Positions 1,956 through 20,576 of a stretch of 21,077 bases of DNA are shown here, in pieces. Every line of letters begins with the position of its first letter. Positions within the stretch are counted from its first letter, which is position 1. The notes below the pieces were generated by a model. That model was given only the letters and a program-made list of their open reading frames with translations, made no database searches and was not told the origin of the DNA. Position numbers and translations under genes: made by a program. Source of the stretch: a virus; the IMG/VR virus record IMGVR_UViG_3300042534_000399, positions 1 through 21,077 of that record. One strand, given 5' to 3'.

Positions 1956-2285
1956 ATGAAACTAGTTTTTTCTTCTCGTAGAGTAGTCACTTTAGATGAA
2001 CTAATTAAAGAAAGTGACCTACTCAAAACAAATCCTGATGTAAACTTTTACATAGCTCCTGATGGTGCTGAAGTAACAGCTTACAAGTATTCTAATGGTC
2101 TTTGGAAAAAAGAGATTGTTAAGAATAGCAGAAGGATAGTAAGGTTTTCTGCAAAAATCGGTGGTAAAATTGTAATGACCGAACATGCAGAAATCATACT
2201 TAATTCTAGCATTTTTGAATCTGTAGCTGTAGAAGTTGCAGAGATGTTTTCTCAGTATTCTAACTCTAAACTTTGGGTAAAATGA
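1956..2285 (+). CDS. Hypothetical protein, 109 aa
   Basis: Unrecognised soluble protein. It opens with a basic beta segment (MKLVFSSRRVVTLDEL), followed by alternating strands (VNFYIAPDGAEVTAYKY, RIVRFSAKIGGKIVMTEHAEIIL) and a C-terminal helix (ESVAVEVAEMFSQYS). It has no membrane segment or cysteine motif. The ATG at 1956 has an A-rich upstream context. The stop overlaps the next start by ATGA, so the two genes are co-translated. Confidence 0.55.
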   Translation: MKLVFSSRRVVTLDELIKESDLLKTNPDVNFYIAPDGAEVTAYKYSNGLWKKEIVKNSRRIVRFSAKIGGKIVMTEHAEIILNSSIFESVAVEVAEMFSQYSNSKLWVK

Positions 2286-2566
2286 GGTACAATGTGAATT
2301 ATTTTATTCAGAAGTTTGAAGGAATTAGAGATGAAGCTTGCATCACTGGAACTATGTGTTCTGGTGGTGCTGGTACTCCTCTTAAATTTGATTGTTTAGG
2401 GCATTGTCGTGATAATTTTGGTAAGTTTAACCTTACAGAACGATATGCTCTATTATCATTAGGTAATGTTGTACAAGCTTGGGATGGTAACCTTAATGGG
2501 TTTTCTCAATCTACACCAAGAATAAGACTACTTACTTACCTTAGAAGCCTTAACAGCAAACATTAA
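2282..2566 (+). CDS. Hypothetical protein with four clustered cysteines, 94 aa
   Basis: The likely start is the ATG at 2282 in an ATGA overlap with the preceding gene; an in-frame TTG nine bases upstream is less likely. The N-terminal half carries four cysteines as C-x5-C and C-x3-C (ACITGTMC, then FDCLGHC), with a histidine next to the last cysteine. This spacing could bind a metal but is not a family I can name. The C-terminal half is helical (LTERYALLSLGNVVQAW, RIRLLTYLRSL). No fold is assigned. Confidence 0.55.
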   Translation: MRYNVNYFIQKFEGIRDEACITGTMCSGGAGTPLKFDCLGHCRDNFGKFNLTERYALLSLGNVVQAWDGNLNGFSQSTPRIRLLTYLRSLNSKH

Positions 2567-2660
2567 TTAACCACACATGCAGAAAGACAAGAGTAAAACT
2601 AAATGACGTGTTTACTGACTGATTAATTCACTTTTTAACTAACAATTAAACTAAACAAAA

Positions 2661-3170
2661 ATGACAACTGTTGTAAATCTTTCTAAAAATTCTACCAATG
2701 CTGAAATCTCTCAAGTATTGGGTAACCAACTTGCTTCTGGTAAAACTCATGTTTTTGCCATGGTGCCTTCTGTAAATAATCCTTCTAGGGTTACTTTATT
2801 TATGTGTCAGCAAGTTACCACTCAGACTAATGCTTCTGATGCTCAGAAGTTTTTCTTAGGCTGGGGACAAGGTACTCGTTTACTACGTGCTATTTTCTCT
2901 GCTGAGAAAGCTCTTGTAGCTCAAAATGGCATTGCTGCTGGTTCTGAACTTCCTTTTGACATTCTTGTTGAAGAGAAAACTGAACCACAATATGCTGGTC
3001 AGAATCCAAAAATTAATCCTTCTACTGGTGAGGTAATCACTAGCGAAGGTATGCCAATTTTTGAGCATTCTTCTCTTGTACCTGTAGGTTATGGTGGTAA
3101 AGTTGTATCTTTGCCTCGTGAAACTGCTGGTGTTTCTGCTGATTTTCCTGGTGCTAACTTGCTAGGATAA
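2661..3170 (+). CDS. Abundant-type conserved unknown protein, 169 aa
   Basis: Not confidently recognised. It is soluble, about 169 residues, with an N-terminal beta/alpha part (AEISQVLGNQLASGKTHVFAM, RVTLFMCQQVTTQ), a glycine/aromatic stretch (FFLGWGQGTRLLRAIF) and a Pro/Gly-rich C-terminal part (ILVEEKTEPQY, VPVGYGGKVVSLPRE). An OB-like nucleic-acid-binding fold is possible but unproven. Codon use differs from most neighbours: three of its four arginines use CGT, whereas most genes here use AGA/AGG, and GCT and TCT dominate. That bias, a leader of about 90 nt and the long hairpin after it suggest strong expression as its own unit. Confidence 0.65.
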   Translation: MTTVVNLSKNSTNAEISQVLGNQLASGKTHVFAMVPSVNNPSRVTLFMCQQVTTQTNASDAQKFFLGWGQGTRLLRAIFSAEKALVAQNGIAAGSELPFDILVEEKTEPQYAGQNPKINPSTGEVITSEGMPIFEHSSLVPVGYGGKVVSLPRETAGVSADFPGANLLG

Positions 3171-3187
3171 TTTAGTTTGGATTTATT

Positions 3188-3224
3188 TAATAATGTGCCT
3201 ATCTTTATGGTAGGCACATTATTA
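3188..3224 (+). terminator. Long perfect hairpin after the 2661-3170 gene
   Basis: A 14-pair perfect stem (3188-3201 with 3211-3224; core AATAATGTGCC) has a nine-base loop. No T-tract follows (ATAATAT), so it may be a stabilising 3'-end hairpin or processing site as well as a terminator. It lies just before the tRNA-like element. Confidence 0.6.
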
Positions 3225-3230
3225 TAATAT

Positions 3231-3354
3231 AGTCAGGTATTGCGTAATGTCAAAGTGGTCTATGACATCCTGAAAAACACCACGATCCATAACCATTTGG
3301 ATGCGAGAAGTTATAAAGGTTGCAATGTCACAAGTTCGAATCTTGTCCTGACTA
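3231..3354 (+). ncRNA. Aberrant tRNA-like element
   Basis: An acceptor-like stem AGTCAGG (3231-3237) pairs perfectly with CCTGACT (3347-3353), followed by A3354. Just inside lies a textbook T-arm: ACAAG (3330-3334), loop TTCGAAT, CTTGT (3342-3346). The hairpin ATGTCA/TGACAT (3247-3252 with 3263-3268) has a D-loop-like AAGTGGTCTA. The total of about 124 nt is far too long for a tRNA, extra bases lie before the D-like arm, and the best central hairpin (ATCCA/TGGAT, 3285-3302) has an eight-base loop with no clear anticodon. TCAGG can also pair with CCTGA at 3269-3273 instead of the acceptor partner. It may be a degenerate tRNA, an insertion-bearing tRNA or a tRNA mimic. Confidence 0.5.
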
Positions 3355-3572
3355 CAACTTGTCATTAAAGGCACAAAAACAAAGAGTTTTACCCCTTTTA
3401 TTACAAGTTATACGAACTTGGGAAAATTACCGCCAACTTTATCAATTAATTTTAATCTTTAAACCACATTATAGTATGATTTATTGGTTTTTATGCTTTT
3501 AAACGTAAGATAATAACGACTAAATCACATTAAAATGCTGTTTTACGCAAATAACCTTTAACCCCAAACAAA
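3355..3572 (+). other. Non-coding stretch after the tRNA-like element
   Basis: No gene is supported. A small hairpin CAAGTT/AACTTG (3404-3420) is the only structure seen. Base use (CGC, ACG, ACC words) differs from the surrounding sequence and matches the gene that follows. Confidence 0.3.
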
Positions 3573-4295: not shown

Positions 4296-4369
4296 GGTTC
4301 CATAGCTCAGTTGGATAGAGCAATAGATTTCTAATCTATAGGTCTTAGGTTCGAATCCTAATGGGACTA
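4296..4369 (+). tRNA. tRNA-Arg (anticodon UCU)
   Basis: A canonical 74-nt cloverleaf without encoded CCA: acceptor GGTTCCA/TGGGACT (a G-U pair at the end), D-arm GCTC...GAGC with AGTTGGATA, anticodon arm ATAGA-TTTCTAA-TCTAT, variable loop AGGTC, and T-arm TTAGG-TTCGAAT-CCTAA. Anticodon TCT reads AGA and, by wobble, AGG. These are the dominant arginine codons of this phage, so the tRNA should support its translation. Confidence 0.95.
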
Positions 4370-4380
4370 CTAATAAAGGT

Positions 4381-4411
4381 TCTTGATGTCGCCTAAAGCT
4401 CAAGATTTTTT
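4381..4411 (+). terminator. Intrinsic terminator after tRNA-Arg
   Basis: TCTTGA (4381-4386) pairs with TCAAGA (4400-4405), followed directly by six T (4406-4411). It should end the lysozyme/tRNA transcript. Confidence 0.65.
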
Positions 4412-4417
4412 GGTACA

Positions 4418-4455
4418 ATAAATAGGGGGAGAAATCCCCCTATTTATCTTTTATT
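4418..4455 (+). terminator. Strong hairpin terminator
   Basis: A 12-pair perfect stem, ATAAATAGGGGG (4418-4429) with CCCCCTATTTAT (4436-4447), has a six-base loop and a T-rich tail (CTTTTATT). It lies 7 nt after the previous terminator, so the two form a double stop before the next gene run. Confidence 0.7.
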
Positions 4456-4471
4456 CTTTAACTTTATAAAT

Positions 4472-4738
4472 ATGCAAGAATTAGTATTTAATGACAAAAA
4501 AGTTATCTTAGAAATAGCTAAATCTATGGGTTTTTTCTTAGTTGAAGACTTATGGGATACACAAGGTTATTTAACCTTTCAACTAATTGGTGAACTACAT
4601 GAAAAAGAACTAGTGTTAATATGGAATAAAGATGAACATATTACTCAGAACTTTTCTGTAGCTGCTAAAATCCTGTTTAAAGCAGGACAGAAAGCTAAAT
4701 TTTATCAAATCAGTACTTTACCTTATTTAACTATATAA
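4472..4738 (+). CDS. Hypothetical protein, 88 aa
   Basis: Unrecognised soluble protein that starts a run of tightly packed small genes. It is mixed alpha/beta, with strands in the middle (YLTFQLIGELHEKELVLIWN) and a helix later (SVAAKILFKAGQKAKFY). It shows no signal peptide, membrane span or metal motif. The ATG lies 25 nt after the strong hairpin at 4418-4447, so its transcript must start within that short gap or read through the terminator. The next gene begins 3 nt after its stop. Confidence 0.55.
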   Translation: MQELVFNDKKVILEIAKSMGFFLVEDLWDTQGYLTFQLIGELHEKELVLIWNKDEHITQNFSVAAKILFKAGQKAKFYQISTLPYLTI

Positions 4739-4741
4739 TAT

Positions 4742-18133: not shown

Positions 18134-19498
18134 ATGACAGAATTAGAAAAATTATTATCAACTGCTAGTGATGTAACTTCATTTACAGAATTAGTAGTTA
18201 AACATTATCCAAATGTAGTGATTAGGCCCACTACCCAACTTATTGATACAAATTATATATCTTCTAGTATTTGCATGTATAATTATTTTTATTATGTAAA
18301 TACTTGTGATATATATATGCTATTTAATGATTATAATGTAATTGTAAATCCTAGAAATAATAACATAATAGCTATTCATAATGATAATGATGGCTGCTAT
18401 GGTCTAGATAATACAGATGCTTATGTTATATTATCACATGAACCAGTTGATTTTAGCAACTTACAATCTTTATGGAGTGAGTTTCAAAAAACTATACATG
18501 CTGTTAAATTTAAAGAGTTTGGTCTAACAAAGCTAAAACCTATATTGGATGAAGTTCATGGTGAAAATTATGATTTACAAGTTTGCTCAGATGGAAATTT
18601 AGATCTACTTATTAGGTATCCACATATAACTATTACTAATACTCAGAAAAAAAGTAGAGAAATAGAAGAGTTGTATTGTGTACTATCTTTTGACTCCTAT
18701 GGTCTATTGAAAAACTTTTCAGGTTTTAGAGCTAAGATGTCATTTAATGATGTAAAAAATGGTTACAGGCATTCTCACTTAAACTCTAGAAACTTACAGT
18801 TTTTGTTTGATGTATCAGCATTTTGTACAGGTAGTACTGATTTAACTGCACTCAAATCTGAATTTATGGAAGGTTTTGATGCAGATAGATTTGACTTATT
18901 TTTATATCAAATAAACAATTTTGTAGAATGGGAATCTCTTGAAGGTACTCCTTATGTTAACTTATCTACAGTTAGTAATAAAAACTTTACAGTACTAAGT
19001 AGGGAACCATTAGATTTAGCACAAACTATAACAAATGACTTTAATAAGTTCTGTGCTGCTTATAAAGAAAATCCTGATCTATTTAAACCTTTATTAAACT
19101 ACAATAATTTAAGTAGTAATATAGAAGTCAGTATTCAAAATGTAACTGATTTAGCTAGAGCACTAGCACCTTATTCTACCTACTATGGTACTCTTGACTC
19201 TAATGGTGAGGTACAAACGGTTAATAATGAAATATATGATTATCAGGAAGCTCAAGAAAATTTAAATCATGCTTTATCAAATATCACATACAAAACATTT
19301 AGAAACAACCCCATAAATTATGACGCAACAATCATGGAACAACAAGCAGAAATCACAACAGAATTCTGCAGTAAAGAACTCTTATCCTTCTCAAGGGCAA
19401 AATTACAAGAGTTACTCTCAACCTATCACACCAGTGTACAAACCGAAGATGTTTATCTCTCCAGAGATAATTTCGAAAATTTGGTACTTATGTCATAA
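18134..19498 (+). CDS. Candidate E2-like ubiquitin-conjugating protein
   Basis: A protein of 454 residues from the ATG at 18134; the in-frame start at 18083 lies inside the terminator and is rejected. The first 100 residues are an unknown domain. Residues of about 110-270 follow an E2 order: helix (LQSLWSEFQKTIHAVKF), strands (NYDLQVCSDGNLDLLIRY, EELYCVLSFDSYG, FSGFRAKMSF), the segment GYRHSHLNS (His213, His215) and FCTGSTDL (Cys231), then helices with an aromatic patch. A histidine segment followed by a cysteine in FC-x-G is how I remember prokaryotic E2-like (PRTRC_B/Bil-type) proteins. Predicted to carry Ubl as a Cys231 thioester. The C-terminal part is helical and overlaps the JAB gene. 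Sequence evidence is moderate; context raises confidence. Confidence 0.55.
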   Translation: MTELEKLLSTASDVTSFTELVVKHYPNVVIRPTTQLIDTNYISSSICMYNYFYYVNTCDIYMLFNDYNVIVNPRNNNIIAIHNDNDGCYGLDNTDAYVILSHEPVDFSNLQSLWSEFQKTIHAVKFKEFGLTKLKPILDEVHGENYDLQVCSDGNLDLLIRYPHITITNTQKKSREIEELYCVLSFDSYGLLKNFSGFRAKMSFNDVKNGYRHSHLNSRNLQFLFDVSAFCTGSTDLTALKSEFMEGFDADRFDLFLYQINNFVEWESLEGTPYVNLSTVSNKNFTVLSREPLDLAQTITNDFNKFCAAYKENPDLFKPLLNYNNLSSNIEVSIQNVTDLARALAPYSTYYGTLDSNGEVQTVNNEIYDYQEAQENLNHALSNITYKTFRNNPINYDATIMEQQAEITTEFCSKELLSFSRAKLQELLSTYHTSVQTEDVYLSRDNFENLVLMS

Positions 19499-20576
19499 AA
19501 TTAATACAGTAGAATGGTCTGGTCTTGTATTTTGTAAAACTGAAGGTCATCCTATTAATCCTGAAACCTTTAGCATTAGAGCTATAGACATTTTGCCTAT
19601 GCATAAAGGTGAGCCTACCTATACTGAGTTTGAAATAGATGAAAGAGTAATTGATGCTTATGATAAAAATCCAGAGCTAGAAGATTGTAAAATGGGCATT
19701 ATTCACTCTCATGTTAATATGGGAGTATTTTTTAGTGGAACAGATACTTCTACTTTAAATGAGTATGCTAAGCTTTCTAACTTTTGCATTTCTTTAATTG
19801 TTAATAACAAAGGTGAAATGGTAGCCAAAGCTGCTTACCCTATTAACAATAAATCAAAAAGATATGCTAAAGAGTATAAAGATTCTGAAGGCAACTGGAT
19901 ACCTCTAAATAATAATCAAGAAGAAGAGGTATCTTCTTTTAATGTAATAGCACTAGACCTAGACATTATCATAGAAATTGATACTTTCTTTCAAGGTATG
20001 ACTGAAAAAGCTATTAAAGAAAGTCATACAGCTTACAATAATTCTGGTACTTATAATTATGGTAGTTATAATAATTATGGATATGATTATGATATAGATA
20101 ACTATAATAAGAAACCTACTCATAGTTTAGCTCCAATGCCTAAATTATTTGATGATAAGCCATTTGTAGCTAATAACAAAGTCACATTTACTAAAAAAGA
20201 AATGAATTCATTTTTATGTAAATTGATGTTCTTAGATCCATTATATGCTAGTACTAGTAGTTTTGAGCAAGCCTTAACTAAAATTGATGATAAGTTTAAT
20301 GGAATGGATCAAGATGCTTATGCTATTCATATGGAAGATAAGATTGAAGAATGTTATAGAGAAGTGTTCTTTATTAAAAGAGGACAATTATTAAATAACA
20401 ATACTGTAGCTGATTTTCTTACTGATGTAATGGAGTATTGTTTAGAAGTTGCTTATGATGTTAAAAGTAGTACTGCTGAATTTATTTATACAGTTATAGC
20501 TGATTACTTTACAGATGTAATTGAAGATGATGATACTACTTCTTGGAATAATTCTTTTAACAAATCAAATAACTAA
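19320..20576 (+). CDS. JAB/MPN-domain metallo-isopeptidase (deubiquitinase-like)
   Basis: Residues of about 44-170 form a JAB/MPN domain with a complete JAMM zinc motif: Glu65 (TVEWSG), then His129-x-His131, seven residues, Ser139-x-x-Asp142 (HSHVNMGVFFSGTD). Such enzymes cleave peptide or isopeptide bonds after a ubiquitin-like C-terminus, so it may mature the Ubl precursor or remove it from targets. A Tyr/Asn/Gly-rich linker (about residues 240-262) leads to a helical C-terminal domain of unknown role. From 19320 the protein is 418 residues with an Asn/Gln/Ser-rich head that overlaps the E2-like gene by 179 nt; the ATG at 19449 (MFISPEI) is a shorter alternative that keeps the whole JAB domain. 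Its stop overlaps the E1-like start (TAATG). Confidence 0.88.
   Translation: MTQQSWNNKQKSQQNSAVKNSYPSQGQNYKSYSQPITPVYKPKMFISPEIISKIWYLCHKINTVEWSGLVFCKTEGHPINPETFSIRAIDILPMHKGEPTYTEFEIDERVIDAYDKNPELEDCKMGIIHSHVNMGVFFSGTDTSTLNEYAKLSNFCISLIVNNKGEMVAKAAYPINNKSKRYAKEYKDSEGNWIPLNNNQEEEVSSFNVIALDLDIIIEIDTFFQGMTEKAIKESHTAYNNSGTYNYGSYNNYGYDYDIDNYNKKPTHSLAPMPKLFDDKPFVANNKVTFTKKEMNSFLCKLMFLDPLYASTSSFEQALTKIDDKFNGMDQDAYAIHMEDKIEECYREVFFIKRGQLLNNNTVADFLTDVMEYCLEVAYDVKSSTAEFIYTVIADYFTDVIEDDDTTSWNNSFNKSNN

Follow-up and report, generated by a model that had tools for sequence, protein, structure and literature searches.

What kind of RNA is encoded at positions 3231–3354 of the IMG/VR virus record IMGVR_UViG_3300042534_000399, where both ends look like those of a transfer RNA (tRNA) and the middle does not? 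The whole stretch analysed (the window) is 21,077 bases long and encodes a phage-type DNA polymerase, helicases, a primase and a Sak4-like protein. Our favoured answer, to which, taken whole, we give a probability of about 0.5 from sequence comparison, is that the element encodes a conserved and structured phage RNA in its long form, one that does not decode, has an exchangeable middle and acts as a natural tRNA scaffold. Membership of a non-decoding, modular RNA family is very probable; the scaffold function is a more tentative proposal. The parts of the element are as follows:

3231–3354, plus strand: whole tRNA-like RNA (group A, long form), from acceptor to discriminator base; 86.8 bits to model R1
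3231–3237, plus strand: 5′ strand of the acceptor stem, AGTCAGG, from pairing and covariation
3239–3243, plus strand: 5′ strand of an extra helix, P2, ATTGC, pairing with 3322–3326, from an alignment of 31 relatives
3247–3268, plus strand: D-like hairpin ATGTC...GACAT with GG at 3257–3258 in its loop, from covariation
3269–3319, plus strand: vestigial arm at the anticodon position, CC (3269–3270) with GG (3318–3319), which carries the module; CC/GG in 31 of 31 relatives
3277–3311, plus strand: 35-nt portable module, stem ATCCA (3285–3289)/TGGAT (3298–3302), loop TAACCATT (3290–3297)
3322–3326, plus strand: 3′ strand of P2, GCAAT
3330–3346, plus strand: T-arm ACAAG-TTCGAAT-CTTGT, from covariation
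3347–3354, plus strand: 3′ strand of the acceptor stem, CCTGACT, and discriminator A, followed by C

This tRNA-like element of 124 nt is real. The acceptor strands (3231–3237 with 3347–3353) form seven of seven Watson-Crick pairs and the T-arm (3330–3346) five of five, and a perfect 7-bp acceptor stem together with a perfect 5-bp T-arm carrying TTCRANT is found once in the window, at 3231–3354, and in none of 1000 dinucleotide-shuffled windows. The element folds at −32.7 kcal/mol (z = −2.18; 5 of 200 shuffles were equally good); its D-like hairpin, with GG in the loop, sits inside P2 and not straight after the acceptor stem. The trailer AACTTGT (3356–3362) can pair with ACAAGTT of the T-arm (3330–3336), a possible alternative fold of the precursor.

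The initial annotation had described, besides the perfect acceptor stem and T-arm, the lack of a clear anticodon, and here too it was right. The window element has no 5-bp anticodon stem with a 7-nt loop, that position being occupied by the 2-bp CC/GG stub and the module with its 8-nt loop. ARAGORN made no call with ends 3231 and 3354 under default or intron options; with -io it proposed two implausible intron-bearing tRNAs ending at the downstream tRNA-Arg gene, one of which spans the element region. At relaxed scores it listed dozens of candidates or more throughout the window, a result that is not informative about the element. An intron-bearing tRNA was rejected, given no intron call with these ends and short-form relatives (below) that have no anticodon arm. 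The Rfam tRNA model reached 12.4 bits on the element, from the T-arm alone (gathering score 29). For transfer-messenger RNA (tmRNA, RF00023) the window RNA gave no Rfam match at the gathering score and none among the listed matches with E ≤ 10, and positions 3–70 of the RNA form a U-A pair rather than G3-U70. Other Rfam matches of the element, the best being plasmodium_snoR31 (27.1 bits versus 60), were judged to be chance.

Nineteen viral stretches contain a 25-nt core of the window, and 45 match a 5′ pattern. The window's own family, group A, comprises 34 distinct candidates including the window, of which 31 were aligned (set A1), leaving out L300 and L312 (no 3′ end) and L298 (another body). 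Short forms of 80–86 nt, with CC-(loop)-GG in place of an anticodon arm, make up 19 of the 31; the other 12, including the window, are long forms of 120–125 nt in which an internal-loop hairpin, the module, is set in the CC/GG loop. The module is present in L263 and L129 (long) and absent in L306 and L314 (short), with little else different between them. The proposal that the element is a tRNA with an unusual insertion thus holds for the module, but the module-free form is itself without an anticodon.

The A1 structure, composed of the acceptor stem, P2, the D-like hairpin, the CC/GG arm with its module and the T-arm, has 96.0% of cells paired, while sliding it by 1–3 columns leaves 32–42%. 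Covariation is seen at 10 of 34 pairs, with 39 cells altered on both sides; 0 of 500 shuffles reached these levels of pairing and covariation. The acceptor pairs form in all 31 members (their 5′ strand was in the search pattern, their 3′ strand free), and the next-to-outer pair of P2 is A-U in 22 members and U-A in 8. RNAalifold on group A returned a 24-pair frame agreeing on the acceptor, P2, D-like hairpin, CC/GG and T-arm. An alternative partner had been pointed out for TCAGG (3233–3237), namely CCTGA at 3269–3273; this pairing is possible in the window, but CCTGA is present in only 7 of the 31 rows whereas the acceptor pairs form in all, and the switch was therefore rejected as a conserved feature.

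Model R1, in whose training set the window stands, gave 87.5 bits to L033, which lies outside that set, and at most 46.3 bits in the rest of 100 sources. R1 also gives weak matches to ordinary tRNAs (in 73 of 99 genomes, at best 36.3 bits), and a score of about 73 or higher was therefore required for a group-A reading. Over 43 sources it yielded 37 matches, 27 of them distinct (set A3, with 4 also in A1); in A3, which is fitted to R1, 72 cells are altered on both sides versus 22.3 when shuffled, and 6 of the 7 acceptor pairs are affected. Leaving the acceptor free, a further scan gave 67 stretches and, over all loci, 50 distinct elements with 16 acceptor combinations (for example TATTGGG/CCCAATA, TGTTAGG/CCTAACA and AGTCAAG/CTTGACT), 49 of which have the T-arm and at least 6 of 7 acceptor pairs. 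Some columns were fixed by the search patterns and so had no full freedom to vary: in A1 these cover part of the 5′ strand, in A3 the D-like hairpin. At the Rfam gathering score no group-A element was reported in L287, L314, L301, L285, L313, L296, L306, L129, L264 or L269. These compensatory changes support the acceptor, T-arm, extra helix P2 and D-like hairpin, and group A appears to be a conserved phage RNA family, uncalled by ARAGORN and Rfam where tested. The impression that the ends are selected is borne out by the covariation of acceptor and T-arm across relatives, and the suggestion of a tRNA mimic fits ends kept as paired RNA around a missing anticodon arm.

The module also occurs outside group A. 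The 19 core-bearing stretches comprise nine of group A, nine with a different scaffold (group B) and one phage tmRNA (L260). Group B and the tmRNAs are:

L126, L227, L258, L259, L262, L266, L267, L268 (cut by the contig end) and L271: group B carriers of the module
L260:1628–2056, minus strand: phage tmRNA with module, 90.7 bits (gathering score 47)
L275:13428–13880, minus strand: phage tmRNA with module, 52.4 bits (gathering score 47)

L073 has the group-B form without the module. In a third scaffold, group C (L354–L357), P2 is GAGC/GCTC in three of four members and the outer module pairs are AGT/ACT; the locus of one group-C element, which also has tRNAs, holds an Rfam freshwater-1 RNA (L356:1101–1162, plus strand). 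The outer module helix of the tmRNAs is in other letters again, GAATGAAAC/GTTTGATTC with one G.G mismatch in L260 and GAAC/GTTC in L275. The L260 tmRNA alignment is without the model positions of the last pseudoknot, and the module of L260 sits at that very place; in L275 the module lies in the corresponding region. Above 18 bits, a model of the module (R2) found in 200 loci only the known carriers or copies of them. A module in Bacteroidota chromosomes was considered and rejected: weak matches in 2 of 41 genomes (25.7 and 24.1 bits) were judged to be chance, with no Rfam match at either site (L324, L325) and with the L324 site resembling coding DNA.

The position of the module in the two tmRNAs is what favours reading the element as a ribosome-associated RNA, related to tmRNA in its action; in both, the module would serve to place the RNA on the ribosome. 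But the window RNA has neither a tag frame nor G3-U70, the aligned set has no fewer forms without the module than with it (19 of 31 lack it), and the module may be a mere stable structural plug; we consider this reading improbable.

Group A belongs to a wider class. Twenty-nine viral stretches match exactly a 23-mer taken from the 3′ end of the element, with AGTCAGG upstream in 27 of them (not L004 or L028) and 68–128 nt to the acceptor end. A gapped acceptor and T-loop pattern was matched by at least 120 viral stretches with AGTCAGG tRNA-like elements, and the loci fetched up to that search contain at least 203 AGTCAGG elements, 190 of them unique, with very different middles. A pattern of D-arm and T-loop only, with the acceptor left free, also matched at least 120 stretches; among the matches listed are 102 distinct elements, 92 having at least 6 of 7 acceptor pairs (85 having all 7), with 34 acceptor sequences. 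For the 46 of these 102 with an acceptor other than AGTCAGG, the count with at least 6 of 7 pairs is 42, versus 5.3 with partners shuffled.

A general scan of the fetched loci found 769 tRNA-like structures, of which ARAGORN named 365, leaving 404 odd elements (348 unique), mostly of 90–130 nt and up to 10 per locus. A 151-nt tRNA-like structure with acceptor TGTAAGG (L127:3169–3319, minus strand) lies between tRNA-Gly and tRNA-Ser with spacers of 5–10 nt. Loci found through AGTCAGG are biased towards that acceptor; in those brought in only by the window core (L256–L271), however, AGTCAGG is the acceptor of 26 of the 31 companion elements (19 of the 23 unique ones), so its dominance is not due to search bias alone. 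ARAGORN-named tRNA-Leu genes have other acceptors in 29 of 40 cases; the names that ARAGORN gave to 43 AGTCAGG elements, 26 different ones, are probably spurious. A C follows the discriminator in 338 of the 348 odd elements and in 320 of the 321 named tRNAs, which suggests that the two sets share the same 3′ processing.

The missing anticodon is a property of this class as well. The test covered 149 of 306 unique AGTCAGG elements (those with a GACGC anchor), whose middles fall into 114 clusters, 90 of them singletons. An arm with a 5-bp stem, a 7-nt loop and T33 could be formed in 2 of the 114 clusters (1.67 when shuffled), versus 227 of 279 named tRNAs from the same loci.

Such an RNA could still be charged. 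It would then be a non-decoding tRNA, aminoacylated (probably with leucine in Leu-type members) and engaging EF-Tu, the ribosome or a transferase. Among the matches listed, selection by acceptor and T-loop gave 129 distinct elements, 98 of which begin with AGTCAGGTGGCG, a Leu-type D-arm, and the discriminator is A in 290 of 348 odd elements; PMC9976931 describes Escherichia coli LeuRS as independent of the anticodon, which makes charging of Leu-type members possible. Group A, to which the window belongs, has no Leu-type D-arm, though, and 58 of the 348 odd elements have another discriminator, and we regard charging as quite unlikely to be the explanation.

The same combination of tRNA-like ends and no decoding function, with many different middles within one phage, would suit a decoy or sponge, that is, an RNA that imitates tRNA and draws host tRNA-targeting nucleases or tRNA-binding defence, its middles varying with the enzymes baited. 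Known anticodon nucleases, however, cut in the anticodon loop, which is missing here, and the presence of the module inside tmRNA needs no decoy reading. Phage tRNAs as such are known to counter tRNA-targeting defences, as reported in PMC10264068 and PMC11555353; on balance a decoy seems unlikely.

Constant ends with a variable middle are also the form of a guide, and the element might be an antisense RNA on a tRNA body whose middle pairs with a target transcript. Within its own locus this was rejected, where exact matches elsewhere in the locus show no excess over shuffling (longest match 9.91 on average versus 9.87 shuffled, n = 295), and what is conserved in group A and in the module is structure; a guide is very unlikely.

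The class seems to be one of phages. A scan of 84,980 species with the Leu-type AGTCAGG pattern found 2 contigs, both short contigs of bacterial metagenome-assembled genomes, with two elements each. Ten proteins from them were tested, with 3 phage-family matches, one a sigma factor, and we infer that both contigs are phage, apparently misbinned. One match was found in 296 Bacteroidota genomes, through one of the same 2 contigs. With the scaffold nearly absent from bacteria in both scans, a copy of host tRNA-Leu was rejected. A similarity search of 50,697 phage records gave no match over at least 80% of a query, so no cultured carrier is known. The host is presumably one of the Bacteroidota: there is a short match to Cellulophaga phage phi13:2, one contig was binned as Chitinophagaceae, and the start regions are AT-rich and have no Shine-Dalgarno sequences.

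It had also been proposed that this is a decaying tRNA gene used as an integration site. The ends are indeed tRNA-derived, but the acceptor, P2, D-like hairpin and T-arm of group A covary with compensatory changes, which leaves decay unsupported. An attachment site agrees poorly with a scaffold on just those 2 bacterial contigs and with several elements per phage; either explanation is exceedingly unlikely.

The surroundings of the element can be compared with a syntenic phage, L009, which is 78% identical to the window over 2036–3228 and 80% over 4300–4741. Two neighbouring features of the window enter the comparison:

3188–3224, strand not assigned: perfect 14-bp palindrome, terminator-like, TAATAATGTGCCTA/TAGGCACATTATTA
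4296–4370, plus strand: ordinary tRNA-Arg (TCT), downstream of the element, called by ARAGORN

The palindrome, which has no long T run after it, is nearly identical in L009 (the outermost pair differs), and a tRNA-Arg (TCT) adjoins the tRNA-like element there too. The same intergenic region of L009 holds a 71-nt AGTCAGG element that starts 122 nt after the palindrome, versus 6 nt in the window. It has the same acceptor and exactly 26 nt of 3′ end in common with the window (3330–3355), with an unrelated middle. A normal tRNA at this spot in a related phage, together with a simple recent insertion in the window, had been named as the observation that would speak against an aberrant RNA. That is mostly not what L009 has: its element is without an ARAGORN call, its middle is unrelated and only a 4-bp stem with a 4-nt loop could be drawn at the anticodon position, although the Rfam tRNA model scores it at 42.2 bits.

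Just 3′ of the L009 element (4483–4554, minus strand) is a structured-looking stretch before an AGTCAGG copy, with the pairs ACCTG/CAGGT, TACCCTT/AAGGGTA and ACCAC/GTGGT; similar letters lie upstream of the L012 and L026 elements. Also downstream, six T follow a mini-hairpin, AGTCAGGTGGCGATATACTACCTGACT, which may be a remnant or else a terminator made out of the acceptor sequence. Elsewhere in the window, 19320–20576 has a weak match to Prok-JAB (21.7 bits, under the Pfam cut-off of 25).

Several observations weigh against a conserved RNA with a functional, exchangeable middle. Covariation of the module is thin (3 pairs, 3 cells), and the outermost P2 pair forms in just 8 of the 31 A1 members. 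In the wider class the middles alone are mildly structured (mean z −0.81, n = 113), and for the whole element with only the middle shuffled the mean z is −0.18 (n = 114). Some odd elements pass the Rfam tRNA cut-off, namely L264 3526–3607 (54.4 bits), L264 4623–4734 (39.7 bits), L073 1113–1218 (35.4 bits) and the element of L009, as is expected if acceptor, D-arm and T-arm are sound. A named tRNA on the same strand lies within 100 nt of only 35 of the 404 odd elements and within 1 kb of 143, in loci that are fragments. A linked partner protein, sought in 308 loci, was rejected as a candidate, no protein cluster occurring in more than 46 of them; of 10 clusters looked up (30 being listed), 3 had Pfam matches, all to general phage functions.

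Since the middles exceed shuffled ones only slightly in structure, many of them may be filler. Carried through, this becomes a reading in which only the tRNA-like ends count, for instance by titrating or recruiting a processing enzyme, and middles drift freely, as the weak folding excess and the singletons among the middle clusters would allow. It does not sit well with a conserved and covarying middle in group A, with a module conserved in several scaffolds or with middles that recur across contigs (one cluster seven times), and we hold it to be decidedly improbable as a full account.

The favoured reading, a structured scaffold with an exchangeable middle, would join these results as follows. 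The RNA keeps the features recognised by tRNA-maturing enzymes, namely the 7-bp acceptor, the T-arm, a D-like hairpin containing GG and a discriminator followed by C. What lies between the ends is exchangeable, being a family-specific fold (here P2 and the D-like hairpin) or, in the wider AGTCAGG class, hypervariable. Host RNase P and the 3′ tRNA enzymes would cut the RNA, and addition of CCA would stabilise it; an exchangeable RNA domain would then be displayed at the far end of the tRNA body, where a partner belonging to translation or to tRNA-targeting defence could meet the middle. The occurrence of the module in tmRNA as well would make its likeliest partner one that acts on tmRNA as it does on tRNA, namely the ribosome, a translation factor or a defence directed against these RNAs. 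A broader form of this proposal is possible but doubtful. It would make the class a general phage RNA platform, in which host tRNA enzymes mature a tRNA body specific to phages (in most cases with AGTCAGG/CCTGACT as acceptor, and frequently with a D-arm of Leu type) that carries many plugged-in RNA domains, some shared with phage tmRNA, each a separate effector on translation or tRNA-targeting defence, with T4 rnaC as an independently evolved case.

The results indicate that a class of phage RNA genes, large and so far uncatalogued, lies in and near tRNA clusters; programs miss its members or probably misname them, and a literature search, mostly without subscription papers, returned no report of this anticodon-less phage tRNA-like class. 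A module common to anticodon-less tRNA-like elements and tmRNAs suggests a common partner, which a single RNA bait could reveal.

Among known systems, tRNA (RF00005) shares with the element the acceptor, the T-arm and GG in a D-like loop, and tRNA-Leu shares its D-arm type with the wider class; the anticodon arm of tRNA is missing from the element. Like the element, tmRNA has a tRNA-like end without an anticodon, and the module is common to two phage tmRNAs; the window RNA differs in having U3-A70 where tmRNA has G3-U70 and in being without a tag frame. In the synthetic tRNA scaffold reportedly used for RNA production in E. coli, an RNA is carried in a tRNA body for stability; that scaffold is man-made, and the arrangement here would be natural. 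M3 RNA of phi80 and C4 RNA, given in PMC11143913 as non-tRNA phage RNAs cut by RNase P, are comparable to the element by description only.

The closest comparison is with T4 rnaC (species 1 RNA), described in PMC9697503 as RNAC, a late RNA checked by Northern blot and of unknown function; its role is likewise given as unknown in PMC3014915. It is a stable phage RNA of a tRNA cluster and, like the element, longer than a tRNA, and in T4 it has a perfect terminal T-arm. In four relatives an acceptor-like stem shows compensation from A-U to G-C; two of these, VPA32 and NM4.3, keep the same ends but have part of the middle replaced. It differs in the tandem U.U retained in the acceptor-like stem and in ZX14, which is without the T-loop consensus, and a family with several members per phage was not seen for rnaC, which was searched for in the phage collection only. 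We regard rnaC and group A as similar in design and make no claim of homology; as a comparison for rnaC, the class makes an old question of function testable in a laboratory phage.
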